Assembly: GCF_963675165.1 (NCBI RefSeq)
Contig: NC_087386.1
Coordinates: 6,454,066-6,518,065 of the forward strand
Length of the DNA stretch: 64,000 nucleotides
Source of the DNA: Halichondria panicea
Taxonomy: Eukaryota; Porifera; Demospongiae; Suberitida; Halichondriidae
Direction of reading: 5' to 3'
Part shown: in pieces, positions 44,319-62,968 of the stretch
How the letters are laid out: the number at the start of each line of letters is the position of its first letter
How positions within the stretch are numbered: position 1 is the stretch's first letter
Translations under genes and position numbers: made by a program
The notes under the pieces: model-generated
The model's input: only the letters and a program-made list of their open reading frames with translations
Told to the model about the DNA's origin: nothing
Databases searched by the model: none

Positions 44319-44816
44319 CATTGTAGTATATATTCGCACGCACAATATGAAACCGACCCTCCTGCTACCTCTAAATATGAAACCGACCCCCCTGCTACCT
44401 CTAAATATGAAAGCGACCCTCCTGCTACCCCAAGATACGAAACCGACCCCCCTGCTACTTCTAAATCGAAACCAATCCCCTTGCTACCCCTGAATACAAA
44501 ACTATCTGTAGCTACCAAATGGATCTGACAAAGAGGCTCTCTAATTGCTTCCAATATGTAGCTAAATACTTACATCAGAGTGGAGCACTGACTGACATAC
44601 AATACCAGATAATCATCAGGCATAGAGACGGTGCTGAGAAGCTCATGGAGATTATTGTTGTTGGCATCAAAGACCCAGACACCACATTGGATGCTTTTGC
44701 CGACTTTGTGAGAGCAATGAAACGAAGTGGGAACAAATTCTTGCAAACATTTGTCAGAGAAAAAATTGAATCGAAACGAAAACAGTTGTATAGAGAATTG
44801 CTCACAGTTCCACCAG
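44319..44816 (+). CDS. Proline-rich leader and CARD-like domain
   Basis: From about 44,340 the frame encodes four copies of a ten-residue repeat (YETDPPATSK). From the ATG at 44,519 another frame encodes MDLTKRLSNCFQYVAKYL, then LTDIQYQIII, KLMEIIVVGIKD, LDAFADFVRAM and KFLQTFVREKIESKR, about 100 residues with the six-helix hydrophobic spacing of a CARD/death-fold domain. The exon ends at 44,816 (phase 1) and splices to the TIR exon. Leader and CARD are offset by one base near 44,465; in the second frame the upstream residues read ATPEYKTICSYQ before the ATG, matching the paralog at 62.6 kb. Either the ATG is the true start or the leader is frameshifted. CARD modules recruit signalling partners by like-like contacts. 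Confidence 0.65.
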
Positions 44817-44873
44817 GTATGTGGTATAAATAGTTAATGATGATATGATCATGTTGATTTCCCATATTCACAG

Positions 44874-45292
44874 GTTTCCGAGCATCTCAGGAATACGACG
44901 TCTTCATCAGCTACAGTCGTGAGGCTGACACTATGCGCACAGTCGACACTCTTTTGCGCCCTCGACTAACACAAGAAGGCCTCACTGTGTTTGTAGACAG
45001 AGATGGCGTTCGTCCTGGGGACAGATGGCGATCTGAGATTGCCTCCGCTATCAAAACCTGCAAAGCCTTTGTTTGCTCACTAAATGCTACGTGAAGTCCG
45101 TGTACTGCAACGGAGAGCTGTACGAAGCAGTGGCTCTTGACAAGCGACTGTTCCCAGTGGTGTGTGAGCATGGTTGGGGAGATGTGCCTGGAGGTGCTCC
45201 TGTGACGGAGGTGGTACAAGAGGTTCAGTTAGTGTCGCTAGTAGCAGAGGACAGGGAGACACAACTGACAAGACTGGTCCAAAGTATCAAAG
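44874..45292 (+). pseudogene. TIR domain exon, frameshifted
   Basis: After CACAG the exon reads FRASQEYDVFISYSREAD (TIR box 1), VFVDRDGVRPGDRWRSEI (box 2) and ASAIKTCKAFVCS. Near 45,075-45,085 the frame changes by one base to CYVKSVYCNGELYEAVA, then FPVVCEHGW, ending in LVQSIK at the GTCAGT donor. All three TIR boxes and the conserved glutamate in C-N-G-E-L are present across the two frames, but as read the protein stops at a TGA after SLNAT. TIR domains act in immune signalling or as NAD+ hydrolases. A one-base sequencing error is the alternative to pseudogenisation; the next exons also have problems. Confidence 0.8.
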
Positions 45293-45376
45293 GTCAGTCA
45301 TTGCATTGCAATCACTCTCATAGTGTTACTGAACTTATTTTGAAGTACTTTGATGATATCATTATTCATTTTGCAG

Positions 45377-45646
45377 AAACTGTGGCACCTTTATTACCTG
45401 TTGCAGTAGCTCCAGGCTCGTCTAATCTACCCACCGACCATGCAGGCTGGTAAGATGATGCTATATTTACTTGTTATTGTTGGTGCATAATGTGTTATTA
45501 TCCCTCATGCAGGTCCCTCGTCCCCTGTAATGGAAGGTGTGTGTAAGAAGACTGGAGTGAGTGATCAACAACTAGATCAATAAATCCCTGAGAGTGACAT
45601 CATTCTATTAGCGGAGAAATTTCCTCACCTACTGAGCGTGCACAAG
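45377..45646 (+). pseudogene. Linker and partial death-fold exons after TIR, disrupted
   Basis: Exon 45377-45449 (ETVAPLLPVAVAPGSSNLP) ends at donor GTAAGA. Exon 45513-45646 reads GVSDQQLDQ, then TAA, then IPESDIILLAEKFPHLL before GTAGAC. The two exons do not share phase as spliced, and the second has an in-frame TAA. The second exon may be the start of the first death-fold module. Confidence 0.5.
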
Positions 45647-45907
45647 GTAGACAGTACATATAAATTATATATGCAACTTGTTGTCCTGACATTTTGGTGA
45701 GAAGAGAAATGGTGTTCATGTGTATGGGGGATTGATGACATGTATCTAGAGGGTTCGGGGTATGCCCCCAGGAACTCATTACTACCTGCTATTAAGAATA
45801 TTGTTCACCAGAACCACTCAATTGTATTCCCATCGAGTTTCTTCTAGAAGGTATTTCCGAGGCAACTCCCACCAAATATAACCCTGTTGATTGTTGCTTT
45901 TGTACAG

Positions 45908-46491
45908 GCTTTGACAATTAACGATCTGCAACATGTTTACGAGAAACTACACACTGCACATGAAAGTGCCAGCCCTCACTGGTTCAATCTGGGATTGGCT
46001 CTAGGTCTGACTCATTTTATTCTCACCAATATCGATAGCAAGCATCATGGTGATAATGTGTCATCATTGCGTGAAATGTTGGCTGAGCTCCTGCGTACGA
46101 AAGATGTAACATGGAGTCTCCTGTCAGATGGTCTCAAAAAGCCCACGGTGGAGCTCATCAATTTGGCTGATAGCGTCACAGGTAACCATTTTCAGTGTTT
46201 ATGCATATGGTATATACGTACATTTAACGTCATTTTATCTTTTTTCTTTGCACAGCCACAACTCCTAACCTGCTCGATCGACTCAACCTCACCCCAGCCG
46301 ACCTCGGTGATGTAACTGATGTCACACGTCGTTATGGCAATCAAGCTGGAGTGGATTATGCATTGAGAGTGTGGCAAAGAGTGAATCCTTCCAGAGCTAC
46401 CTTCAGGGCCTTGGTGGAAATTGCCATAGGACTGAGAAGAGGAGACACTGCTGTAGACATTTGTAGATTTATTGTAAAGGAACTAAACTGA
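45908..46491 (+). CDS. Two death-domain-like exons, 3' end of the TIR gene
   Basis: Exon 45908-46181 (phase 0 to 1) reads LQHVYEKLHTAHESASPHWF, NLGLALGL, LREMLAELL and TWSLLSDGLKKPTVELINLA: death-domain layout with the conserved W and LADSV end, homologous to the domain at 50.6 kb. Exon 46256-46491 (frame continues as ATTPNLLDRL) reads LTPADLGDVTDVTRRYG, YALRVWQRVNP, FRALVEIAIGLRRGDTAVDI and ends LN-TGA: a second death domain. Both exons are intact and in frame with each other. A possible AATAAA lies near 46,733. The protein would be CARD-TIR-death-death if the upstream lesions were not there. Confidence 0.75.
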
Positions 46492-47096: not shown

Positions 47097-48313
47097 TTTT
47101 TTTTTTTTTTTTTTTTTTTTGAGGTTAATTATACAAAAACAAGTGAAAGTAAAAAAGAGGTTAAAAAAAAAAAAAAAAAAAAAAAATAAGTTAGTGTTCT
47201 AGGTTAGTGTTCTAGGTGTCCCTCCACAACTTGGACCTCGATTGGCTCAAGAAGTACATCCTTAGCTGGTCTGTTTCTTGATGACCTGGCACCCCTAATT
47301 GCCATAATGGATGCCCTCAGTAGAGCGAAACTCAGCTGGCATCGTATCCATCCTATCATTGTATTGTAGGGTACATCTCTCTTCTCACTGAACATCGACG
47401 ACAGTCTCTTGTAGAAAGTTGTTGCAGCTCTTCCCATGCCTCCAGTAGATGAGAGGACTAGTGGTGTGAAAGTTGAGTGTTCCACTTCCCGAATACGCTG
47501 TTCATAGTGGCGTTTCTTTTCCAGCTCATGTCTTCTGTATGTAGATGCTAGAGAGGTTTGTTGATTCGATTGGGCACTTGGGTTAAATACCCTTACATCA
47601 AGGAATGCCTTTTCGAATCTGCCTCCCCAGAAGCCGCATACTGCGATGTCTAGTCTTGATTGGTCTTCTGTGTTGGCTGTTCTGTGGGACAAGGATTCTC
47701 CCCTAATAGGTTGAAGGTGTGGCTCTATTGATACACTGTGGCATACTTTCGTCAGCAGGGAGGCAGTAATATCTCGAATTTCGTTATGCCTAATTGATGG
47801 ATATCCTCCGGTCGGACACGACATGGCATGTGCGATACCGAAAGTGTGGCCACAGCTGCAGTGTGATGGTGTGTTCTTTAGAGCCCAGCCATAGCGGAGG
47901 GATAGGGCATCCCGGAACGCAGCCTTATGGAGAGCGAAGCCATGGTTCTCGATGGGTAGTGCTGTCAGCCAGGTTGACGCACCTTTCTCTTGTGAGAGCT
48001 CCATGCTGCGTTGGAGCGGGATAGGGAGTTGTTCCAGCAAGTTTTTGGCTGATTGTTTTAGTCTGTTTTGTTTCTCTGATCTAGTTGAAGCCTTTATTTT
48101 TCTTTGAGTTTCCGAGCATTCAGCATTCTGGTGGTCTTGTTTCAATACCAGTTCTACAAGTGGGGCACTGATTTTCCTTGACGTGTAGTGCTGACTTGCT
48201 GATACACATAGAGGATTGATCAGGCCTATGCCTCCATATTTAGGAGGAAGTGTAAGCAGTTCTCTAACCAGGTCCCCTGGTGGGCTGTGTCCCGTAAGAG
48301 CAGGAATGAATAG
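47097..48313 (-). mobile_element. 5'-truncated LINE with 12-bp target duplication
   Basis: Flanked by TGATACAGTACT at 47,085-47,096 and 48,314-48,325. Minus-strand orientation with its A-tail seen as a T-run at 47,097-47,120. Inserted into the left terminal repeat of the TIR transposon, so it is the younger of the two. Confidence 0.88.
47204..48313 (-). CDS. LINE ORF C-terminus: RT tail, CCHC knuckle, restriction-like endonuclease
   Basis: Open for 369 codons from the insertion boundary to a stop. It starts with an RT C-terminal segment (LPPKYGGIGLINP). A zinc-knuckle follows (C-S-C-G-H-T-F-G-I-A-H-A-M-S-C), then R-H-N-E-I-R-D and a nuclease-like R-L-D-I ... F-L-D-V-R-V pair resembling the PD-(D/E)xK fold of R2/NeSL-type restriction-like endonucleases. 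The rest contains FTPLVLSSTGGMG and a basic tail. In this class the nuclease nicks target DNA for target-primed reverse transcription. The 5' part is missing, so it cannot move by itself; the intact frame suggests recent insertion. The family assignment rests on motif order only. Confidence 0.7.
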   Translation of the reverse strand, partial: LFIPALTGHSPPGDLVRELLTLPPKYGGIGLINPLCVSASQHYTSRKISAPLVELVLKQDHQNAECSETQRKIKASTRSEKQNRLKQSAKNLLEQLPIPLQRSMELSQEKGASTWLTALPIENHGFALHKAAFRDALSLRYGWALKNTPSHCSCGHTFGIAHAMSCPTGGYPSIRHNEIRDITASLLTKVCHSVSIEPHLQPIRGESLSHRTANTEDQSRLDIAVCGFWGGRFEKAFLDVRVFNPSAQSNQQTSLASTYRRHELEKKRHYEQRIREVEHSTFTPLVLSSTGGMGRAATTFYKRLSSMFSEKRDVPYNTMIGWIRCQLSFALLRASIMAIRGARSSRNRPAKDVLLEPIEVQVVEGHLEH

Positions 48314-49839
48314 TGATACAGTACTGACGTGGATGTGAAACGGCCTAGTATCCGGAGGGGTCCACGGGAATTGTCTGAAGCTATCATCGTAACAAGCAGA
48401 TTATGTTAGAAACCCTGTAACTGTCATGTTTATATAGCAACCAGAGCGTAGTAAACAGTGTTCCGTGTCTGAAAACTGGTGAAAATGACCGGCACACATT
48501 GATACTTGCAGTGGGCTTGTAGGTAAGACTAGTTTCTCTAAGCTCATGGGAGAATATCATATTTTAGCATAAATTTTCCTGTAAAAATACTTTGTGTGAG
48601 ATTTTTGGCTTGGACAGTAAATATTCAGGTTACCATTCAGTAGTAATACTTGAAGTACACTGTAAACTACGAGGAGAATCTATGTTTGACAACTGTTATG
48701 AAAGTTTAAGTGCTATAGAAAGGGCTAAAGCATGAGTTAGTTGCACTTTTGCGTGAGATTATTTCTAAACCTGTTGAGCCTATTTTTTGCATATTTAGCT
48801 GATGAAAACCTTCGTGTATTGATGCAGCAGGAGAATCTATTAACTAAGCATACAGTAAAGTTATTGGAAAAATACAGCCTCAAGAAAAATATGTAAAATC
48901 TATGTACATGTTAAACAAAAATTAATCCTATGTTCTTATTACAACTAACTACTATTATGATTTCTATCAATAAGTTCACACGTACATGTACATGTCATTA
49001 ACTTTCCAAATTGCAGTGTTGTCTTTCGCTGAGCTAAGATATCAATTGCCAAATGTTAGCTAATTATACTATCAAGTGAAATTTATCCCAGAACCTACTC
49101 GAGTGCTACTTCTCTAGGCAACACCATCGGTGAAGACAGCAATTAACGTCCAACCTCTTTTCAAGTGCCGTGTATCTACACTTGTATAGGAATTTCGAAC
49201 CGGCAAGTTGGAATGTGTCTCTCTCATAGCCACTTCGTAAACGATCAAGAAACAGTTTATCGTGTACTATAAATTAATACTCTCAGACTATTATAAAATT
49301 CTATTAGCATGTACACGTACACGTACACGTACAGATCATCAACAATTTTCACCCGTTTGCTTATCTCATGCTAGTGTTATGAGTCAGCCACACTTCTTTT
49401 GATCTACATGCATGCTACCAACATTGAGTGACTTGCTTTTGGATATAATTACATGGGTACAGGGGTAGATCTACTATAAAATAATAATTATAGACTTAAT
49501 TAATTAATAGTTAATATCATCTTGCACTGGACTGTACTTCCTCTACTCATTCTACCTCCTCACAGTCACTACTACTGTCTTCGCTTAATACACTTGCAGC
49601 ATCAATATCCTCTCTGTTAATACATAGATTCTCTTTTATCTGTCTCTGGCCAGTTCTGCCAACTCACTCACAGCTGCTTGGTATAACCTCGATAATTTCC
49701 TCGGCGTTTATTTGGAACAAATTGCCTAATTTACGGAAACTAGTAAATTACCTCGGATATGCCCGTTACTATGATAGCTTCAAGCAGAATACCGGAATCC
49801 AGAAACGTTTCACATCCACGTCAGTACTGTATCATCTAT

Positions 49840-50229: not shown

Positions 50230-50970
50230 ATGGGGATCACAGTGGAGTTGTGGAGAGCTCGCATTGGGCAGTTCAGTGGTGGGAGGGGATCACGACCACA
50301 CAGTAAAGCTCCCTCGACAAAACAGCCTCTACACTTCAGTGATACAGTGGGTACTACTGCAAAAGTTGTTCAAGGAGGCTTGCTTTTATTGTTAATTCTC
50401 AAGTTTCTGAGTTCTCACGACAAATCACTTTTGCTAAAACGCACAAGAAATGCTGGTCTCCTGATGATTGCCATTGTTGGGTTGGTCCACTCTCTTGCCC
50501 ATCTCTTGCTGCTAGCTGGAGACATTGAGAGCAATCCTGGGCCACAAATGGGTAAGTTGTATGATTTATATTGTGAAGGTGGATGTTTCTAAATTTTCCA
50601 TATTATTGTTACAGACGAAGTTCTGGCTCTCCATGAGCATCTAGAGGACGCTTACAGCAAGCTGTTCAAGGCTCGTACAGAATGGTTCAATATTGGGCTA
50701 ATTCTAGGTGTCGATGGCAAGACTCTTACTGCTATCCGCCAGGAGCATTCTAGTAACCATGGTGACTGTCTCCGAGATATGTTGGCTCATCGTATCAAAA
50801 CAATGGATTCACTCACTTGGGGAGATCTGTGCAAGAGTCTTAGACATGTCACAGTAGGACGCAGTGATGTGGCTGATGAAATCGAAGCAGGTATTTTTAG
50901 TACAGGTATAGCTGAACCTCTCCAACAAAAATGTGTCAGTATATGGCACTCGTTTGTTTGTGATATCTGA
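50230..50970 (+). CDS. 2A-leader/death-domain protein (two exons)
   Basis: Exons 50230-50551 and 50615-50970 join in phase 1 to give 225 codons. The N-terminus reads MGITVELWRARIGQF, then a basic/serine region, a hydrophobic stretch (GGLLLLLILKF, about residues 52-62) and a second one (LLMIAIVGLVHSLAHLLLLA) directly before G-D-I-E-S-N-P-G-P (residues 97-105). D-x-E-x-N-P-G-P is the 2A ribosome-skipping signature; separation is expected between G104 and P105. Downstream, PQM leads into a death domain: LALHEHLEDAYSKLF, EWFNIGLILGV, CLRDMLAHRIK, LTWGDLCKSLR and GRSDVADEIEA. 2A leaders before immune receptors and in LINEs are known in several invertebrates. The leader may be a targeting signal when skipping fails. 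A GTATTT donor at 50,891 may offer an alternative end; as read the last exon stops at 50,970 and an AATAAA lies at 51,040. Confidence 0.75.
50518..50544 (+). promoter_or_regulatory. 2A ribosome-skipping motif (coding)
   Basis: Encodes GDIESNPGP just after a hydrophobic helix in the first exon. All residues of the D-x-E-x-N-P-G-P core are present. Confidence 0.85.
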
Positions 50971-51045: not shown

Positions 51046-51224
51046 AGCGAGCAAAAGCTGAACTTGCACGTTGACTGCATGGCTAGCTAGATCTAGCTAG
51101 CTATACACGCCGCTTTTATTCGAGGTACGTATTTTCAGCTGTTTTATTTCTTTTTCCCTAAGACTCCTAGTCTCAAAGCTAGACTCCTCCCTAGGGGTCA
51201 AGTTCCTATGTGTGAAACTCATGT

Positions 51225-51386
51225 TAGAAGTCCACGAATTTCTTGGACTGGTATAATTAACCGCACAGGACGTGCATGCCCACTATCTGCCATGAACATG
51301 ATCCTTATATTCATGACTAATTGTGGGCGTGTATGTCTTGTGCGGTTAAATTACCGTTCAAGAAATTCGTGGACTTTTAACAGGCG
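51225..51386. repeat. Foldback, about 160 bp
   Basis: Arms of about 60 bp starting GTTAGAAGTCCACGAATTTCTT and ending AAGAAATTCGTGGACTTTTAAC, both containing a GCGGTTA/TAACCGC block, around a 40-base centre. Confidence 0.8.
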
Positions 51387-51448
51387 TTTCATTAGAGGAA
51401 CACTTAACCAGACTATCTCTATATCCCCTAAGTAGGAGCAAAAGTGCA

Positions 51449-51876
51449 TAAGAAGAGAAGAGTGTCGAACTACTGATATCTACACAAACACTGTGCACAA
51501 AGTAACATGACTCACACGTGATAAAGTATTGTAAACATACTAGTAATCTCCTAGTAAATGTTAACCGTGACGTTTTTAGGGGTGTGGTATCTAGCTAGTT
51601 GTTTGTGTTTAACGTTTAGAGCTCATGGAGCTGCTCACGCACACTGATAGGAGACGATCTCTTCACAAAAATCATCTAAATAGAGACAATAGTCGAGTTG
51701 ATCCTCTTCACTTGCACTCTTTATTCACTATTAACAACTTCTGTGCATTGCGTAATTATGCGCAAACGTCATCAATTGCGATACTCACGTGCAATTGACA
51801 GGATGTCACGTTACTTTGTGCACAGTGTTTGTGTAGAGGTATCGGTAGTTCAACACTCTTCTCTTCTGCCTGGCCT
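51449..51876. repeat. Foldback, about 430 bp
   Basis: Arms AGAAGAGAAGAGTGT...CACAAACACTGTGCACAAAG (51,449 on) and its inverted, slightly diverged copy (51,795-51,876). No coding capacity seen. Confidence 0.75.
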
Positions 51877-51879
51877 CGA

Positions 51880-52260
51880 GACTACAAGACTTTGCTGTGT
51901 TCTTAATGCACCACTGAAACTCAGCTATCAAAGTTCAGCATGCCTGTGATGCTCTTGTTACTTGCTGCTTACTAGCCAGCTTTCATGCTCATACATACAT
52001 CTGCATTTATTGTGTAACACTCCTATAGTACATAATTATGATCTGAGTCAGATACCACACCGTACACTACAATGTGACTAGAGCAGGTATGTTTCAAGGG
52101 TATTAACTTTTGGAATGACCATGCATGCATGGCTAAGGCAGGTGGGCTGCCATCAGAAATTACGCTATTAACCACAGTATGGTTGTAGACACTAGTATGA
52201 CATGCGGCGACCTTATGCACTTACCTTTTTATTGCCAATTATTAATTTTGGCGACACTCA
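51880..52260. other. Non-coding spacer before array 2
   Basis: No recognised gene; ends in a MITE remnant (GGCGACACTCACC, near 52,250) next to the c exon. Confidence 0.4.
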
Positions 52261-52325: not shown

Positions 52326-52584
52326 GACAACCAGACAGCTCTGTATGCAGCCAGTAGTCATGGACATGATGAGATAGTGAGGGTCCTCTTAGCAGCCAAG
52401 GCTACAGTCAACACTGAGGACAAGGTTAGTTTTGTTGTACAAACACATTTACCACAACATTGATGTATGCGCATGCATGCAGGATGGACAGACCCCTCTT
52501 TACATAGCCAGTTACATTGGTCATCAGAAATGTATGGAGCTCCTAATCAATGCTGGGGCCAGTGTTGATGTGACCACAGAAGAG
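52326..52584 (+). CDS. Array 2 exons c and d
   Basis: c 52326-52424 (DNQTALYAASSHGH) and d 52483-52584 (DGQTPLYIASYIGHQ). The d exon is 102 bp, ending DVTTEE, and its c-d intron is only 58 bp and lacks the usual tract. Confidence 0.82.
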
Positions 52585-55500
52585 GTGAGTGTAAGCATAG
52601 ATTGAAAAGGAAGGGGATTGGAAACGACCAGGCCTCCCTGTGTAAATGGTTGAAACACTCCGCGTTATGATTTCGCGCTCGCGATTATTTTTGTTTTGAC
52701 CGTACTCTGGTTGTATTTCAACTGTTTCTAGCTCTCCTATCCACTAGCGATCACTCAGAGGCTGGGAGGTTACTCTAGAGAAGTAAGTTTACACCACTGA
52801 CAAGCTCTAACTTGTCTAAGTCCGCTGTCTTTACTCTGTTTTTAGTTTTTGTTGAGTATAGCTTGAATTACTCCATGTCAACTTTTCTCTTTCCCTGCTG
52901 CAAAGCCTAAACAGCAAAAGACATTGCTTGACTTGGTTATTATGTATCTAAGTGCTATATAGAATGGTTTCATGCCATGGATAAGCTTTACTGTTCATAA
53001 ACGTTTGCAGTATAGTCCTTCAAACTGCTTTAATATACTTTTAGACACACCACGGGCCTTAACCTCTCACGACTTCATAGTAAGGGCTGTTCCTTCTTTT
53101 ATAGCATTTATTTGTTTAGTGATAGTGGTTGCGTTGCTTAGTCGACCTTTTAGAGCTATATTCTCTTTACTTTTTAGAATATTCAACATTAAAAGTGATC
53201 AATTTCACCATTTCTATGTACAGCACATTGTATGGCAGCCAAGACAGGTAATGAGCATGCTGATTATAAAATAATCCCTTGTAGTTTTAGCCACACCCTA
53301 TAACGCGGAGTGTTTCACGCAAAAATTTTCGTTTCCAATCCCCTTCCTTTTCAATCTATGGTGTAAGTAGCTGTACACACGTCTTATAGAGATCACTATA
53401 GCCTATACAGAGCCGTCCCATGCATGTTCTGTTTACCTGTGTTGCTGGCACCAGAGTTAGTCACATGTTTTTGCATGTAGAGAGCACTGGTATAGTTGTG
53501 TATGATGTAAATGTATAGTCACGTGATTGCCTTGAGGCGTAGCCGCACGAAGGATACGGTAAAGCTGACTGTGTAGTTCTACGGTGGCCCTGAGCACTAC
53601 TAGTAGTTTACCTTAGCTACTTGATAGTTCAACTACCTTAGCTACTTTGAAGTTGACCTTTGAACTGTATGTTAATGCTGCTGTAGCCATGCTCTACATA
53701 GCGACTAGAGATCAATAATGAGAGCTACATATATATATACAGGTACTGAGGATTATCTGCAGCCGGTCAGTTCTACCCTATGGGTAACAACAATGCAAGA
53801 CGAGAGTACCACACTTGATTCATTTGGAAGTTACATGTTATTCAACAAAACTATAGTCTAATAGCTTGGGGGCAAATCAATAGGATTAGGATACCACTTT
53901 CTCCTCTTCCCCTTCCCCTCCCCCTCTGAGAAAAGGTCTGGCCACCATGCAGACTAATACAATACATGCAGTTCAAGTTCTCTGTGTATCTATAGGTCTA
54001 TGCCTAATCCACAATTGCAGCACAAGAATTCTGTCTATACAATGGTTCTGGTGTGGTACTCTCGTCTTACATTGCTGTTAGATAATCCTCAGTACCTGTA
54101 TACATATGTAGCTTAGTCTCGAGTTCCAGCCAGTTCTCATTGTAAGCGTGGGAGGGAGAGAACCATCTGGTGACTCTGGGGGCAGAGCGTTCTGTCAGTC
54201 AGGAATGTAATCATCCTGTTAACCAGGTGGATAATAACCCACAATTAGAACTGTGTATTCTCGAAGCTATCTTATATTCTTGTGGGTAAGGCTCCAATGA
54301 ATATACTCTACCAACATTCTGTCCGACGACAGATGCCCAGAGTCACCAGACGGTTCTCTCCCTCCCACGCTTACAATGAGAACCAGCTGGAATTCGAGAC
54401 TAATATGTAGCTCTCATTATTGATCTCTAGTCGCTATGTAGAGTATGGCTACAGTAGAATTAATGTACAGTTCAAAGGTCAACTGCGAAGTAGCTATAAG
54501 GTACTTGAACTATCAAGTAGCTAAGGTAGGTAAACTATCAAGTAGCTAAGGTGAACTACTATAGCTAGTAGCACGCTCAGGGCCACCATATTCAAAATGA
54601 GTTAGTAAAGCGCTAGCCTCGAGACCAGGCTGATTAATTAAAATACGGCCTGGTCTCTATTGCATGGATGATAGTGCACATGCGCGAACTGAGTTACCCA
54701 GAATCTGGGTAACTCGTTATACTTTAGTAAACCTTTGGAAAATTATACCATAAACTAGTTTGTTTACTACTTTCTTTCCGTATTAATTTTAACAAATACT
54801 TGTCTCCGGTGAAGCCGTGGCTTATGCTCTCTATTGCCTTGTCGAGAAGACTTGCTGGCTAGCTGTGGCCCTCTATGGTGTTGTTGAGAAAGAACATATT
54901 AACTACGCTGCAATGAAGGCATCCAAAATCCTGAACCTACTAAGGAGGAACCTCCACCACTCTTCTAAGACAGCCAAATCTAAAGCCTACACTGGACTAG
55001 TCCACCCTAACCTGGAGTATGCAGCTCCAGTTTGGTCTCCGCACAAAGTGTGCGACATCAGTAATCTGGAAAAAGTGCAGAAAAGGGCAGCAAGGTGGAT
55101 AGGGGCCAAATGGAATAGAACACAATGGGACAAATCTTACGAGGAGTGTGCAGACATAATCTCAACTGGCTCACCCTGACTAAACGTCATGAGTTTCTAA
55201 TCTGCTGTCAGACATTTAAAATAATGAACAAAATGGATTGCCTCCAATTCTCGGATTTTTACTCCTTCAATACTTTAAACACTCGTTCTCATAGTCTTTC
55301 TTTAGTTTGTAAATACGCTAGTTTAAATAGCTATAGATTTTCTTTTTTTGTTAATAGTATTTTCCTGTGGAATTTGTTACCCGCTACAATTGCTTACAGT
55401 TGTTCGTATAGTATTTTTAAATCTAACCTTAAGACTTACTTTTTTAATAGTTTTCTAGTTTTTAGCCTTTTAAAATGTCTTGGTTTGTTTGTTCTGTTCT

Positions 55501-58500
55501 TGTTGTTTGCTTTTTGTTTTGTTTATTTATTTGTTTGTTTGTTTGTTTGTGTAATGGGGAGCACCTTTGTAAGGCAATATTGCCTATGTGTGACCCTTTC
55601 CCCTAGCTGTGGATAAATTTATTCAATTCAAGAAGGCTTGCACACTAGTCTGAAGCCAGAAGAATTAAGCTCTTATTTGTACAGAAACCAAGTTCAAAAC
55701 ATCACGACCATCCAACCATCATAGAGGTAGATGAGAGCCTATTCTGGTTTCAGACTAGTGTGCAATTAAGCCTTCTCGACAACACCATAGAGTGCCACAG
55801 CTATAGCTATAGCTAGCTAGGCTATAAAGCTTCATATTATCAAGGGCGTATGAATAGAAGAGGGCATGCAACTACAATCTATCGTATTACAAATGGGCTT
55901 GCAGTTCTCTTCTTACTCTTGCAGCTACCAATACTAAGCGTTCTATAGTGCAGAGCTAACAACTACTAAGTAGAGTATACCAGAACTCGGTGAACAAGTT
56001 TTGCTACGCAGTCTTCTGAAAAGGCTGCAATGGCATTCCAAGTAAGCTAAACTAGGCATAACTCGAGAACGAAGCATTATTTTGCAAATCCACGAATTAT
56101 AATTCAAATAAACATGACTAGAAGCCTATAATTATATAGAAATCTTTACTTGCACTTGATTGATCCTTGAGCAGCTGTAGCAGTTTACACAGACACCCAG
56201 ACACACAAACACACTACCGTATACCTCGCTTGCGCATTTGTATCAAGGCATAATTATCTGTGCTAGTATATAGATATGTTATGTAGATTTGACACATCTA
56301 CCAAGGCATCAGCACCCGCGCATTATATAATGAGTGGGTCTGTGATGATTGATGGTTCACCTGCTCACACTATCTTCTCTGTACAGGATGGAGCCACTGC
56401 ATTGTATGTAGCCGCTCAGAATGGTCATGTGAGGGCAGTTCAAGTGTTAATCGTGGCAAAGGCTCAAGTGAACATTCAAAAGACGGTGAGATTTACTACT
56501 TGGGTGCTATTATAATTATTTGGGTGTGTATAGGATGGTTGGACAGCATTGCACATTGCCAGTCAGGAGGGTCACTGTGAAATTGTTAGAATGTTGTTGG
56601 AGGCCAAAGCTGACGTCAACATCAAGACTACTGTGAGTCACGCCGCATGGTGGTGTTTGTGTACCTTGCTGATTCCATGGTTGAGTGTGTGTACTGTCAC
56701 CTCTGTATGTATGACTGCATGGAAGTCACTCAGTATAGTTGTATTGTCAACTTGGTGTTCTGTACTTGAGCTTTGCTAGTTGAGTCTTCGCTAGTTAGTG
56801 ACCTTTTGTTGGTAACATGCGGAGACTATAAATGACAAGCAACTTGTAAGAATAGCTAGCTAACCAGCCACTAAAGTGAAGTAAGAAAAAATGCTGATGT
56901 GACTAGTGAACCTGTTGACATAGATCTGCATGTCTGGTATTCACTGTGCATGCAATCTTCATCACTTATTGGGCTGCTCTCACATTGTCATATTCTTTCA
57001 CATTATAATGCAGAACATGAAATTGCTATATTTCTGTACAACTTGTCGATCTAGTTGTTAATTAATTAAGGTTACGGTAAACTAGATGTAGCAGCTAAAA
57101 TGAGTTAGAGTCCAGCTGAAACGCAGTAGTCATTTCATGGCTCGAATCGACTTTTTTACTGGGTATATAGCTTAGGTATACAGTCTACTGTAGCTTCACT
57201 ATATGCAGGGCGGCTCGAGGATATATTTTAAAAAGGCTATACCAAAAGGCTGTTTTCCTTGGCTCAGACCACCATTTACTATTATTTTGTGAGAGTTTTT
57301 TGGCCTGGAAAGAAGAAAAGCCTTGTGAGCTGCCCTCCAGAATGGTAAAAAGCATTGTATAAGAGCAAGAACACAGAGCTAGATATACTAGACATATTTT
57401 TCGAGGGTATTAATTTCTGCTATTTCTGCGAATGATAGTAAAATCATGTATACCCGCAGATAATTGGGATAATGCACTTGTGAGTAATTAGAAATGCTGT
57501 TGATTTTACAATTGAGCCTCGGCAGAATTTAATACATGCAAATTTGACAAATCTACCTGTAAAATATGTAACCTGAAGGTATTTATCACGTATGTGCTTC
57601 AAACTCTGAATTTATAGTTTCATGGGAATATTCATGAGCGAACAGTTTATGCCTATAATTTCTAAGGATAATATTATGGTGTAGTGCTGTGTACAGCTTG
57701 GATCTTGCTATACATGGCTGCTAGCACTTAGCAGATACTTCAATGCAGGTTGCATGCATGGTTTTGTTGCATTTCTCACAACATTATTTACACAGTTGGG
57801 AGCGACCCCTCTTTGGGCAGCCAGTTTTCATGGTCAACAGAAATGTATGAAGCTCCTAATCGATGCTGGGGCCAATGTTGATGTACCCAATGAGGTGAGT
57901 GTAAGTATAGCTGTACACACATCTCAGAGGCCACTAGCCACAGAGCCTCCCCATGTTCTGTTGACCTGGTCCATTATATATAGACACCAGAACTAGTCAT
58001 GTTTGTGTAGAGAGCACTGGTGGTTGGTGTATCCCCTGACATTAATGTAGATAGTCATGTGATATTGTATAGTGAGTGGGTCTGTGATGAGTGATGGTTC
58101 ACCTGCTCACACTATCTTGACTCTGTACAGGCTGGAGCCACTGCGTTGAATGTAGCTGCTCAGAGTGGTCATGTGAGGGCAGTGGAAGTGTTGATTGCTG
58201 CAATGGCTCAAGTGAACATTCAAGTGAAGGTGAGATTTACTGCTTGTCTGCTTAAAAGTATTTGGATCTGTACAGAATGGAGCCACAGCATTGTACATGG
58301 CCAGTCAGAATGGTCATTGCGGAATTGTTAGAATGTTGTTGGAGGCCAAAGCTGATGTCAACATCAAGACTACTGTGAGTCACGCTGCATGCATGGTGGT
58401 GTTTGTGTACCCTGCTGATTCCATGGTTGAGTGTTGTGTGTACTGTCACCTCTGTATGTATATGACTGCATGGACCGGGGCGTGCAGGGGAGGTGCTTTG

Positions 58501-61500
58501 GGCACCCCCACCTGACTCTACTTAAAGCTTACTTAAAGATCCAGTTGAGCTCAGCACTCCAGATTTAGCTTGTTAGCTGCATACTGAACTAGATAATCTA
58601 GCTATTCACCTAAGAGAGTAGTTTTTAGTTAGTAGTTGGACTCGAGTTATGAAAGAATTTGTTGATTTGCATGCTGGTTTTAAATTTTAAACTGCATGGA
58701 AGGTCACAGAGGGTTCAGCTATTCACTTCCTGCATGCATGGGTGGAGCTATATTTGTATGTAGGCTTCTCTATGCATTGGGCCATGCCCAACTATGCAGA
58801 TGATGTCACTAATAAGAGGTGTGGTTTCTGGTCAACCAAATTTCGGCACTGCGCGGCTGAAAATTAGGCGCTTTGCACCATCTTTTATTTATAAAAACAC
58901 CCCCTTCTCCAAAATCCTGGCTACGCCCCTGATGGAGGTCACTCAGTATAGTTGTATTGTCAACTTGGTATTCTGTGTACTTGAGCTTCGCTAGTTGAGT
59001 CTTCGCTAGTTGGTGACCTTTTGTTGGTAACATGCGGAGACTATAAATAACAATAAGAATAGCTAGCTAACCAGCCACTAAAGTAAAGTAAGAAAAGATG
59101 CTCATGTGACTAGTGAACCTGTAGGCGTAGATCTGCATGTCTGGTATTCACTGTGCATGCAACCTTCATCACTTATTGGGCTGCTCTCACTTGTCATGTT
59201 CTTTCACATAATTATAATGCAGAACATGAAATGGCTATATTTCTGTACAACTTGTCGATGTAGTTGTTAATTAATTAAGGTTACGGTAAACTAGATGTAG
59301 CGGCTAAAATGAGTTAGAGTCCAGCTGAAACGCAGTAGTCATTTCATGGCTTGAATAGACATTTTTACCATAAAGCTTAGGTATACAGTCTACTGTAGCT
59401 TCACTATATGCAGGGCGGCTCGAGGATATATTTTGAAAAAAGGCTATACCAAAAGGCTGTTTTCCTTGGCTCAGACCACCATTTACTATTATTTTATGAG
59501 AGTTTTTTGGCCTGGAAAGAAGAAAAGCCTTGTGAGCTGCCCTCCAGAATGGTAAAAAGCATCGTATAACAGCAAGAACACAGAGCTAGATATACTAGAT
59601 ATATTTTTCGAGGGTGTTAATTTCTGCTATTTCTGCTAATGATAGTAAAATCATGTATACTCGCAGATAATTGGAAAATGCGATTAAAATCACTTGTAGA
59701 AAACGCTGTTGATTTTATAATTGAGCCTGCGCAGAATTTAATACATGCAAATTTAACAAATCTACTTGTAAAAATATGTAACCTGAAGGTAGTTAATCAC
59801 GTATGTGCTTCAAACTCTGAATTTATAGTTTCATGGGAATATTCATGAGCAAACAGTTTACGTCTACAGTAGACTCTCGTTAATCCGGTCACCCTTGGGA
59901 CCATGCAGCTTGGCCGGAATAGCGAGGTGGCTGTATTTCGGGAAATAGCCGCAGCTTAAAAACGACCTTACCTCGAATCTAATGACTAATTTTGCGGTTC
60001 TTGTCTCGAGGATAATGAAGGATAATGAATCATTCTGTTCTCTCTTTAAGTGTAATCCTTGCTAAACCACACCCAAAACGCCATATCTGGCCATAATACA
60101 CGTATAAAATTACATTGAAAACCTTGAAAGCACTGGTATACGGAATAGCGAGTGGCCGTACTTCAGGGTGAGTTTTGTGCAGTAAACATAATTATAGCTA
60201 GCATTCCGTGCCAAACCAAATGGCTGGTATATCGAGGTGGCCGTACTTCAGAGAGCCGGAATAGCAAGAGTCTACTGTATAATCCCTAAGGATAATATTA
60301 TGGTGTATAGTGCTGTGTACAGCTTGGATCTTGCTATACATGGCTGCTAGCACTTGGCAGATACTTCAATGCAGGTTGCATGCATGGTTTTGTTGCATTT
60401 CTCACAACATGCATTTACACAGTTGGGAGCGACCCCTCTTTGGGTAGCCAGTTTCAATGGTCAACAGAAATGTATGGAGCTTCTAATCAATGCTGGGGCC
60501 AATGTTAATGTATACCCAATCAGGTGAGTGTAAGTAGCTGTACACACATCTCAGAGGCCACTAGCCACAATGATGAGTGATGGTTCACCTGCTCACACTA
60601 TCTTGACTCTGTACAGGGATACACTGCGTTGTGGGTAGCTGCTCAGAATGGTCATGTGAGGGCAGTGGAAGTGTTGATTGCTGCAATGGCTCAAGTGAAC
60701 ATTCAAGCGAAGGTGAGATTTACTGTTTGTCTGCTTAAAAGTATTTGGATCTGTACAGGATGGAGCCACTGCATTTTACGTGGCCAGTCAGAATGGTCAC
60801 TGTGGAATTGTTAGAATGTTGTTGGAGGCCAAGGCTGACGTCAACATCAAGAATAATGTGAGTCACGCTGCATGCATGGTGGTGTTTGTGTACTCTGCTG
60901 ATTCCATGGTTGAGTGTGTGTACTGTCATCTCTGTGTATGAGTGGACTGAGTAGTGGAGAGTGTACAATTAGCTGGTCCAGTTGCAGTGATATATAATTA
61001 TATGGTTTATGGTCTATAACAGAACAACCAGACAGCTCTGCATGTAGCCAGCAGTAATGGACATGACGAGATAGTGAGGGTCCTCTTAGCAGCCAAGGCT
61101 ACAGTCAGCACTCAGGAGAAGGTTGGTTTTGTTTTACAAACACATTTCCCACAACATGCTGTTTACATTGTTTTCCTCCTATGTACAGTCGGGACGGACT
61201 CCTCTTTGGACAGCCAGTTTTAGTGGTCAACAGAAATGTATGGAGCTCCTAATTGATGCTGGGGCCAATGTTGATGTACCCAATGAGGTGAGTGTAAGTA
61301 GCTGTACACACATCTCAGAGGCCACTAGCCACAATGATGAGTGATGGTTCACCTGCTCACACTATCTTGACTCTGTACAGGATGGAGCCACTGCGTTGTA
61401 TGTAGCTACTCAGAATGGTCATGTGAGGGCAGTGGAAGTGTTGATTGCTGCAATGGCTCAAGTGAATATTCAAGCGAAGGTAAGATTTACTGCTTGTCTG

Positions 61501-62017
61501 CTTAAAAGTAATTGACTGTGTACAGAATGGAGCCACTGCATTGCACATTGCCAGTCACAACGGACAATGTGAAATTGTTAGAATGTTGTTGGAGGCCAAG
61601 GCTGACATTCACAGCAGGGATAATGTGAGTCACGCTGCATGATGGTGTTTGTGTACTCTGCTGATTCCACGGTTGAGTGTGTGTACTGTCACCTCTGTGT
61701 ATGAGTGGACTGAGTAGTGGAGAGTGTACAATTAGTTGCTGTGTGCGTGTCATAGTGAGTAATTATAATTTGGCAAAGGAGGAAATTGAACTATTATTTG
61801 CGATGTTTAATATTTATCACATGCGATATACTGCAAGTTAGCAATTAATGTTTTGGCGACCCTCACCTTGAATCGCCAATTTGTCGCCAAATTTACCCGC
61901 TTTTATGGTCTATGACAGAACAACAGGACAGCTCTGAATGCAGCCGGTAAGAATGGACATAATGAGATAGTGAGGGTCCTCTTAGCAGCCAAGGCTACAG
62001 TCAACACTCAGACCAAG
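52326..62017 (+). CDS. Ankyrin-repeat gene, array 2
   Basis: Fifteen exons of the same a/b/c/d subtypes as array 1, in order: c 52326-52424; d 52483-52584; a 56387-56485; b 56534-56632; d 57796-57894; a 58131-58229; b 58276-58374; d 60423-60523; a 60617-60712; b 60759-60857; c 61023-61121; d 61189-61287; a 61381-61479; b 61526-61624; c 61919-62017. All but two keep phase 0 at 99 bp or a multiple of three; the d at 60,423 is 101 bp. The a exons here share GHVRAVEVLIAAMAQVN, distinct from array 1, so the two arrays evolve partly separately. The last c exon (phase 0) precedes an acceptor at 62,328 leading to a proline-rich/CARD-like exon, which suggests an ankyrin-CARD protein. The 5' end was not identified. 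Confidence 0.75.
52596..53360. mobile_element. TIR element, 765 bp, with 7-bp target duplication
   Basis: Ends CATAGATTGAAAAGGAAGG and CCTTCCTTTTCAATCTATG are perfect inverted repeats continuing for over 30 bp. GTGTAAG flanks at 52,589-52,595 and 53,361-53,367; other d-exon introns read GTGAGTGTAAGTAGC uninterrupted. A 100-codon frame inside (52,972-53,274) has hydrophobic segments but no recognised domain. An inner GAAACACTCCGCGTTAT repeat is also inverted (52,650 / 53,298). Confidence 0.82.
53583..54587. mobile_element. Triple nested foldback element, about 1.0 kb
   Basis: Outer arms 53,583-53,735 and 54,403-54,587 (GGTGGCCCTGAGC ... GCTCAGGGCCACC). Between them are two separate hairpins: about 53,731-54,105 (CAGGTACTGAGGATTATCT / AGATAATCCTCAGTACCTG) and about 54,114-54,403 (TAGTCTCGAGTTCCAGC / GCTGGAATTCGAGACTA). 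No ORF. Confidence 0.8.
54880..55628 (+). mobile_element. LINE 3' fragment (reverse transcriptase C-terminus)
   Basis: Reads MKASKILNLLRRNLHHSS, GLVHPNLEYAAPVWSPH, LEKVQKRAARWI, then after a frameshift near 55,150 WLTLTKRHEFLICCQTFKI and NSYRFSFFVNSIFLWNLLP. It is inserted in a relative of the MULE-like MITE (GCTTATGCTCTCTATTGCCTT at 54,819 and inverted sequence at 55,635-55,800). Confidence 0.7.
56387..56632 (+). CDS. Array 2 exons a and b
   Basis: a 56387-56485 (DGATALYVAAQNGH, ends NIQKT) and b 56534-56632 (DGWTALHIASQEGHCEIV). The b acceptor is TATAG rather than TACAG. Confidence 0.82.
56534..57900 (+). repeat. Segmental duplication in array 2, copy 1 (ancestral form)
   Basis: b exon through d exon, 1.37 kb, homologous to 58,276-60,530. 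This copy lacks both transposon insertions found in the second. Confidence 0.85.
56640..57790. other. Long intron of array 2
   Basis: No exon between the b exon and the next d exon; the c exon expected in the a-b-c-d order is absent. The same sequence is duplicated at 58.9-60.4 kb. Confidence 0.5.
57796..58374 (+). CDS. Array 2 exons d, a, b
   Basis: d 57796-57894 (LGATPLWAASFHGQQ), a 58131-58229 (AGATALNVAAQSGH), b 58276-58374 (NGATALYMASQNGH). The d exons here have GQQK where array 1 has GHQK. Confidence 0.82.
58475..58931. mobile_element. hAT-like insertion, 457 bp, with exact empty site
   Basis: Left end CCGGGGCGTGCAGGGG, right end CTACGCCCCTG; ATGGA at 58470-58474 and 58932-58936. The paralogous segment near 56,715 reads GCATGGAAGTCAC without the insert. 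Confidence 0.75.
59877..60277. mobile_element. pogo/Tigger-like MITE, 401 bp
   Basis: Same family as 5,879-6,306, with CAGTAGACTCTCG ends and TA at 59,875-59,876 and 60,278-60,279. The duplicated segment at 57,640-57,670 lacks it and reads straight across one TA, giving an exact empty site. Confidence 0.85.
60423..60523 (+). pseudogene. Array 2 exon d with 2-base insertion
   Basis: Reads LGATPLWVASFNGQQ and LLINAGANVN, then GTATACCC where its paralog at 57,796 has GTACCC. The exon is 101 bp, so normal splicing would break frame. A new GTATAC at 60,510 could act as a donor giving an in-frame 87-bp exon. Confidence 0.7.
60617..62017 (+). CDS. Array 2 exons a, b, c, d, a, b, c
   Basis: a 60617-60712 (96 bp, lacks the first D codon), b 60759-60857, c 61023-61121 (ATVSTQEK end), d 61189-61287, a 61381-61479 (donor GTAAGA), b 61526-61624 (GQC in place of GHC), c 61919-62017 (AAGKNGHNEIV). 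This is the most regular a-b-c-d run of array 2. Confidence 0.82.
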
Positions 62018-62328: not shown

Positions 62329-62968
62329 ATGACTACTGTTACCCCTGAATGCAAAGCCAACTCCCCCGCTACCCCTGAGAACCCCCCTGCTACCCCCTCT
62401 GCTACCCCTGAGAGCCACCCTGCTACTCCCTCTGCTACCCCCTCTGCTACCCCTGAGAGCCCCCCTGAGAGCCCCCCTGCTACCCACTCTGCTACCCCTG
62501 AGAGCCCCCCTGAGAGCCCCCTGCTACCCCCTCTGCTACCCCCTCTGCTACCCCTGAGAGCCCCCCTACTACCCCCTCTGCTACTCCTGCGAACCTCCCT
62601 GCTACCAAAGCCATCTCCTCTGCTACCCCTGAATACGAAGCCATCTGTAGCTGCAGAGTGGAGTTAACCAAGAAGCTCTCTGCGTGCTTCAAAGATGTAG
62701 CTGAATACTTACGTCAGAGTCAATCACTGACTGACGACCAATTCCAGACAATCATTGGCATCCAAAATTCTCAAGACGGTGCTGAGAAGCTTATGGATAT
62801 GATCATTGTCGACATCAAAGAGCCAACAACCACATTGGATGCTTTTGCCGACTTAGTGACAGCAATAAAAAACAGTGGTAACAAACACTTCCAAACGTTT
62901 GTCAAGGAAGTAATTGAATCGAAACGAAAAGAGTTCTATAGGGAATTGCTCACAGTTCCACCAGGTAT
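62329..62968 (+). CDS. Proline-rich leader and CARD-like domain (paralog of 44.5 kb)
   Basis: After acceptor CACTGCAG the frame (phase 0 with the last ankyrin exon) reads MTTVTPECKANSPATPEN and about 50 residues of P-A-T-P-S/E-S-P-P repeats. In a frame one base away a further proline-rich stretch ends SSATPEYEAICSCRVELTKK and continues as LSACFKDVAEYLRQS, LTDDQFQTII, KLMDMIIVDIKE, LDAFADLVTAI and FQTFVKEVIESKRK, clearly homologous to the CARD-like domain at 44,519. The shift lies near 62,521, where one C-run has five instead of six bases. The exon ends PPG at GTATGT (62,968). No TIR exon follows within the window. No ATG occurs at the position of the ATG in the paralog, so here the domain can only be reached through the leader. 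Confidence 0.65.

Follow-up and report, generated by a model that had tools for sequence, protein, structure and literature searches.

Leaders that end in a 2A peptide are already known on death-fold immune receptors, from sea urchin. In Strongylocentrotus purpuratus, the 2A of SpNLR2A ends a hydrophobic N-terminal leader ahead of death-fold and NACHT domains in an expanded gene family, and the portions of that report used here describe one NLR leader that skips at ~80%, with the skipped product cytosolic and the product of a non-skipping mutant directed to the Golgi (Roulston et al. 2016; PMC4981915). StopGo sequences are frequent in RNA viruses, and their use by cellular genes is rare; in the sections of Li et al. 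2026 drawn on here, p12=D and p15=S accompany the L-rich StopGo motifs 2 and 6, which finish on (A/S/C)G, and activity in vitro is given for one example of motif 6 (PMC12846837). Viral StopGo/2A such as FMDV F2A, as treated in those same sections, has the core octapeptide and the L-rich upstream class described below for a sponge, but it separates a polyprotein and is not the N-terminal leader of an immune gene (PMC12846837). Putative membrane-bound NLRs have been described in the sponge Dysidea avara, in a paper that credits the first report to Amphimedon and whose main text contains no mention of 2A (0 matches for NPGP, ribosom or 2A-like); the transmembrane parts predicted there are comparable to the hydrophobic leaders reported here (PMC12909245).

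We analyzed a window of 64,000 nucleotides from the sponge Halichondria panicea (C10:6454066-6518065 of a 131-Mb, 39-contig genome) that holds a gene with a hydrophobic leader ending in a 2A core. A sequence-only reading of this gene had stated that 2A leaders on immune receptors are known in some invertebrates, and the sea urchin NLRs, in the portions of the report used here, bear this out (PMC4981915). Compared with SpNLR2A, where the 14 urchin leaders of the NCBI set in that paper have 26 residues and stand at the very N-terminus, the window leader has 105 residues; the sponge leaders comprise several unrelated sequences and are also found on death domain (DD)-ankyrin and DD-GTPase-like genes; and skipping, which has been measured for SpNLR2A, is a prediction for the leaders here. 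The extension, which may have been reported before, is to a sponge, to several unrelated leaders, and to genes without NACHT. A literature search of mostly titles and abstract openings, made without Rao et al. 2025 (Cell Rep), which is reportedly a survey of 2As in cellular proteins, returned no recognized account of 2A in sponge immune genes.

Leader Exon, 2A Core, and Splice Junction of the Window Gene

The leader and the exon that follows it have these features:

50230 to 50551, + strand: exon 1, the ORF from ATG 50230, with the 105-residue leader, QM, and one base (phase 1).
50377 to 50412, + strand: first short hydrophobic stretch, the LLLLLILKFL region, read from the sequence.
50458 to 50520, + strand: second hydrophobic stretch, by hydropathy, running into the LLLLAG hexapeptide (50503-50520).
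50521 to 50544, + strand: 2A/StopGo core octapeptide DIESNPGP; the predicted break follows Gly, just ahead of the final Pro (50542-50544).
50552 to 50614, + strand: 63-bp intron, GTAAGT...TTACAG, with the donor from 50552 and the acceptor AG at 50613-50614.
50615 to 50890, + strand: exon 2, a putative death-fold domain, ending at donor G/GTATTT, which matches the donor of paralogues.

Translated from ATG 50230, exon 1 reads MGITVELWRARIG...LLMIAIVGLVHSLAHLLLLAG-DIESNPGP-QM, and the C-terminal end of the leader is LLLLAG-DIESNPGP, confirming the earlier observation that a hydrophobic leader ends exactly in G-D-I-E-S-N-P-G-P. The start Met is directly preceded by an in-frame stop in paralogues L004, L005, L015, and L016. 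The opening ~45 residues of the window leader are not hydrophobic, and the top 19-residue hydropathy, 2.41, is at residue 77; since the hydrophobic parts are not N-terminal, a classical signal peptide is not evident. The core fits the 2A/StopGo pattern (D/G/C/N)(V/I)ExNPGP, and the hexapeptide LLLLAG together with p12 = D fits the permissive L-rich class ending in (A/S/C)G, so that hexapeptide and core match StopGo motifs 2 and 6 as given in the sections used here (PMC12846837). The exon junction that had been proposed at 50,551/50,615 is exact at the sequence level, with the GTAAGT donor at 50552, the acceptor AG at 50613-50614, and phase 1. The spliced frame reads ...NPGP-QM-D-EVLALHEH..., and exon 2 runs on as DEVLALHEHLEDAYSKLFKARTEWFNIG....

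Death-Fold Identity of Exon 2

The exon after the leader had been called a death domain, an identification that stands through its family and fails for the single exon against Pfam. A profile of 24 related exons (A1), from which the Pfam-positive exons of L058 were left out, matches the solved death domains of PIDD (4e-5) and FADD (3.5e-4), whereas Pfam Death does not pick up window exon 2 alone, even with the limit at E 0.1; the exon of L013, a paralogue 74% identical to window exon 2, reaches 0.0065 with Pfam Death, under the cut-off. A structural model of exon 2 made from a two-row alignment has six helices at low confidence (pLDDT 55), and the 12 top Foldseek matches of this low-confidence model are all death domains, at E 0.4 or worse. 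We regard the assignment of exon 2 as a probable death domain as good at the family level.

Copies and Conservation of the Leader

A tblastn search with the window leader gave 35 genome matches, 20 of which were fetched (L001-L020, on C10, C5, C6, and C13). All 20 have a GT donor exactly 7 nt past the last Pro codon, in phase 1, and a death-fold exon downstream (HMM, E<1e-3); DD1 acceptors were displayed for eight copies. An open leader ending in the motif is present in 17 of the 20, and the others are L002 (core kept, one stop in the leader), L019 (two stops and the only changed core, NHGP), and L020 (a frameshift ahead of the core). Over L001-L018, the leader has a dN/dS of 0.35 and its final 14 codons one of 0.14, values to which gene conversion could contribute because the copies are paralogues, recent duplication and gene conversion being able to mimic conservation inside a family. 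Among these 18 copies the core varies by I/V changes only, and the hexapeptide is LLLLAG in 17 and LLALAG in the remaining one. A search for relatives of the window leader in viral contigs found none.

When the 8 residues before the core were removed, blastp (E<1e-3) linked the window, GLG, C15, and C13 leaders, which have a common WRA(R/L)(I/V)G start. The C14, C2, C1, C7, F7, and C11 leaders gave no blastp link at this threshold with the 2A end removed, the upstream ORFs in this comparison having been taken stop to stop and possibly including non-coding residues. Five unlike leader groups have death-fold support, and C7 and C11 are two more in which the downstream domain is weak or unclear. 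The hexapeptide before the octapeptide is L-rich or aliphatic and ends in (A/S/C)G in the leaders read, with the exception of one LLLQRG, and the complete leaders measured (n=5) have 49-139 residues.

These comparisons bear on an alternative in which the leader is a plain signal-anchor or membrane segment whose NPGP end is a non-skipping relic or a structural motif, with the receptors membrane-bound. Such a reading would suit the strong hydrophobic segments of the leaders and the putative membrane-bound NLRs described in a sponge, as reported in the main text of that study (PMC12909245), but we consider it improbable given that leaders otherwise without detectable likeness repeatedly carry the exact D(V/I)ExNPGP behind an L-rich hexapeptide and that dN/dS within the leader is lowest over these final 14 codons.

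Genome-Wide Survey of 2A Sites

A degenerate DNA pattern for D(V/I)ExNPGP found 116 exact sites in 131 Mb, where ~0.2 would be expected by chance (an estimate assuming equal base frequencies), and the reversed pattern found 0, a difference that rules out a chance motif. Context was read for 79 of the 116 sites, comprising 19 of the window family and 60 others; the 37 sites outside this reading are 30 of the 41 on C14 and 7 of the 11 in the C2 7.74-7.84 Mb cluster. The 79 sites split into 66 before death-fold domains, 8 of retrotransposon type, 4 in other genes (L036, L061, L062, and L065), and 1 unclear (L051, with no Pfam match). The assignment to death-fold domains is on firmer evidence for 58 of the 79, the 66 including weaker assignments, and a death-fold exon is detected downstream in 49 of the 79 (E<1e-3) by an HMM seeded from 8 of those same 49 loci. 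About 101-103 of the 116 sites are in death-fold gene families and not in mobile elements, a figure made up of the 66 read (minus the weak C7 pair if wished) and the 37 assigned by cluster rather than context. Dozens of predicted death-domain immune-type genes open with a hydrophobic leader ending in a virus-like 2A signal.

The loci differ in what their downstream exons match. Pfam Death matches lie 4.3 and 2.6 kb downstream of L060 and L076, and L022 and L023 have a CARD-like exon with NACHT. In five F7 copies (L054, L034, L042, L041, and L053) an intron interrupts the death domain; the Pfam Death cut-off is passed by L054 (23.6 vs. 22.6 bits) and missed by L034 (0.0043) and L042 (0.058), and the copies other than L054 are assigned by homology to it, the Pfam scan having covered L054, L034, and L042. 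The best PDB match of the F7 profile is Fas, at E 0.19, and L043-L046 have the first half only of the F7-type split death domain. L066 and L067 belong to the same cluster as L068 and L069, and L066 shows a CARD-like exon. The top PDB profile match for the C2 and C1 families (9.5e-4) is a designed protein based on 1cy5, which we take to be the Apaf-1 CARD; Pfam CARD gives 0.098 for L068 and 0.16 for L066 and has no match in L022 or L069, and we call these exons CARD-like, a full CARD call not being convincing. The C7 pair, L039 and L040, has no significant domain match, one exon downstream of L039 reaching 0.0077 with Pfam Death, under the cut-off.

L061 (C16:2730885), L062 (C16:2740084), and L036 (C6:3064858) make up a third class of 2A gene, which from what could be seen belongs neither to LINEs nor to the death-fold families. 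In their long ORFs the 2A is preceded by hydrophobic segments and followed by a Cys-rich stretch that is alike in all three (CxxC...SH, then FP or IP); two of the three have no Pfam match, and L062 has one match under the cut-off.

The presence of 2A in APE-type non-LTR retrotransposons was reportedly described by Odon et al. in 2013. The retrotransposon 2A has the same core and a hydrophobic context as the leaders do, but its better-preserved copies run in one ORF into a PHD finger and an endonuclease, with no splice to a death domain. Five of the eight LINE-type sites (L024, L026, L028, L029, and L052) have a PHD-like stretch in the same ORF, the other three (L027, L064, and L037) are short pieces assigned by resemblance only, and Pfam confirmed PHD and endonuclease in L024 and L029, the two scanned. 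That the window leader is a fragment of a retrotransposon 5′ ORF, a concern of the sequence-only reading, we consider very improbable: 8 of the 79 read sites are LINE-type with similar hydrophobic 2A ends, and the short 2A end may share ancestry with LINE 2A ends, but the window leader ends in a splice donor, all 20 leader copies read have that donor 7 nt past the motif, death-fold exons follow the leaders, and visual inspection of the listed ORFs downstream of the leader copies showed none resembling PHD or endonuclease. For the leader as a whole, membership of a LINE ORF is therefore largely ruled out by the splice donor and the death-fold exons.

Host Genes Behind 2A Leaders

The host architectures behind 2A leaders are DD-NACHT, DD-ankyrin, and DD-GTPase-like. 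On C14, L084 has a 2A leader, an A1-type DD exon that by itself has no Pfam match, and a 1051-residue ORF with NACHT (1.7e-20); on C15, the 2A leader of L085 is followed by two death domains (Pfam 2.1e-15) and by NACHT (5.7e-23) in an ORF of 1027 residues. Because neither NACHT ORF has an LRR match at E 0.01, we call L084 and L085 NLR-like. NACHT is present in the relatives L023, L084, and L085, whereas a search behind the window copy gave none. In L038, a stretch matching Pfam Gtr1_RagA (6e-5) is GTPase-like.

In L083 (C10:1200500-1210400, − strand), downstream of the 2A-DD gene C10:1211819, exons for a putative P-loop GTPase (WDTGGQP) and for further death-like domains can be made out by eye. 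A similar module of ~180 residues is found behind death domains in several families of 2A genes, in L081 (479 on, + strand), L007 (83-622, − strand), L030, and L047; the L007 copy, the one scanned, has no Pfam match.

Among the 102 NACHT matches listed of 265 candidates, 13 are at most 6 kb downstream of a same-strand 2A, compared with 0.27 expected under a uniform model, and control placements for the listed matches gave 0 upstream and 0 on the opposite strand. Among the 150 Death matches listed of 503 candidates, 5 precede a 2A at close range, the pattern expected of tandem arrays. Since most of the matches listed (89 of 102 NACHT and 142 of 150 Pfam Death) lack a 2A in the 6 kb ahead of them, 2A leaders are a feature of a subset of these genes.

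Proposed Function of the Leader

We think it probable that the leader is a first-exon cassette in which a basic N-terminus leads into a hydrophobic segment of membrane type and then 2A/StopGo, and that this cassette is spliced onto death-fold receptor genes and gives a skipped cytosolic receptor and an unskipped membrane or secretory one. Most ribosomes would skip the NPG/P bond and free the leader as a peptide with a C-terminal hydrophobic segment, while the death-domain protein would begin with Pro and remain cytosolic; with non-skipping ribosomes, the hydrophobic segment would be retained and would direct the receptor to the membrane or secretory path. One message could then give both the leader as a free peptide and a receptor in the cytosol. 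Because the segment adjacent to the core would still be in the exit tunnel at the NPG/P decision, skipping would come before membrane targeting. The sequences themselves establish the anatomy, which agrees with the sea urchin design, along with the phase of the splice, the conserved 2A end, its recurrence ahead of many death-fold genes, and a donor in place of retrotransposon coding sequence behind this leader. We infer the skipping, the two products, and their targeting from the sea urchin (Roulston 2016) and from StopGo work (Li 2026).

If the leaders skip, cellular genes beyond those of sea urchin would be using 2A on a large scale, in connection with innate-immune-type receptors, and predicted membrane-bound sponge NLRs would be read differently; the many natural leader variants are on offer for the study of skipping efficiency and its regulation. 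We suggest tentatively, and at clearly less than even confidence, that StopGo leaders are an immune-receptor design extending from sponges to sea urchins, with several unrelated first exons here having converged on, or shuffled in, a TM-2A end before death-fold genes. The split between cytosolic and membrane-held receptor would then depend on the efficiency of skipping, the sponge "membrane-bound NLRs" might be partly cytosolic with the TM leader shed in translation, and elongation changes in stress or infection could shift the balance.

Exon Sets and the 3′ End of the Window Copy

Exon sets, read within the ~1.5 kb fetched behind each leader copy, are leader-DD1 in L001-L003, leader-DD1-DD3 in L004 and L005, leader-DD1-DD2 in L007, L011, and L013, and leader-DD2-DD3 in L006, L008, and others; these differences among copies are best read as exon shuffling. 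The DD1 and DD2 exons displayed start in phase 1, and DD1 ends in phase 1 where its donor is legible. DD3 ends in phase 0 (two of the four displayed, by eye), which is the phase of the ankyrin exons checked. Behind exon 2 of the window copy there are the following features:

50891 to 50970, + strand: read-through tail to TGA (50968-50970) if the donor is unused; it differs in L003.
52326 to 61991, + strand: exons further downstream with 12 ankyrin motifs (by pattern); those exons checked are in phase 0.
62652 to 62963, + strand: CARD stretch behind the ankyrin array (Pfam CARD, 2.4e-6).

The donor at 50890/50891 corresponds to the DD1 donor of paralogues. Behind it, tblastn gave no match to DD2 or DD3 within the window, and no phase-1 partner for this phase-1 donor was found ahead of the phase-0 ankyrin exons. 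The first two downstream ankyrin exons (52.3-52.6 kb) match Pfam Ank at 4e-7 and 5e-9, and the 12 downstream motifs are candidate exons of the same gene as the window leader. MITE-like inverted-repeat elements are visible by eye at 51190-51900, directly behind the death-domain exon.

The gene of about 225 codons that had been proposed does exist as a spliced frame of 225 aa to TGA, but that frame needs read-through of the donor at 50891; the window copy is without the 3′ exons found in intact relatives, and a minimal 225-codon gene is doubtful. Nor is there support, in the form proposed, for a minimal 2A/death-domain gene being unusual, the leader being multicopy (20 read) and the same design being found on many larger genes. 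With its sister copies L002 (leader with a stop, disrupted DD) and L003 (another tail, and 6 kb of fetched downstream sequence free of ankyrin motifs), which suggest a shortened sub-clade, the window copy looks like a member of a 3′-shortened group. There is nearly an even chance, slightly on the lower side, that it is a decaying partial duplicate, a leader with one DD exon giving no functional protein, with the biology residing in intact relatives. The unpartnered donor, the lack of a DD2 or DD3 match, and the state of L002 and L003 point to decay, but the window copy has an unbroken leader, sound splice sites on both sides of the intron, and an open DD frame, and an ankyrin array and a CARD do follow it.

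Neighboring Loci

Two further features lie upstream of the gene in the window:

1624 to 36045, + strand: 35 ankyrin motifs (by pattern; outer limits approximate).
44516 to 46452, + strand: CARD-like, death-fold, and DD3-like stretches between both ankyrin arrays (tblastn).

Within 44516-46452, Pfam CARD reaches 7e-4, under the cut-off, the death-fold stretch alone has no Pfam Death match, and no 2A leader was found directly ahead. Similar long ORFs at 47204-48400 (− strand) and in L082 (2172-3010, + strand) have a common Cys/His stretch by eye and no Pfam match, and are perhaps a mobile-element fragment. A neighboring leader copy, L005 (C10:6450532), 3.5 kb before the window, heads a leader-DD1-DD3-unknown module, and we infer that the 35-motif ankyrin array belongs to the gene of this upstream 2A leader. 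The array contains near-identical blocks, some recurring every ~1.4 kb (18494, 19882, and 21274), as if it had grown by tandem duplication inside a gene.
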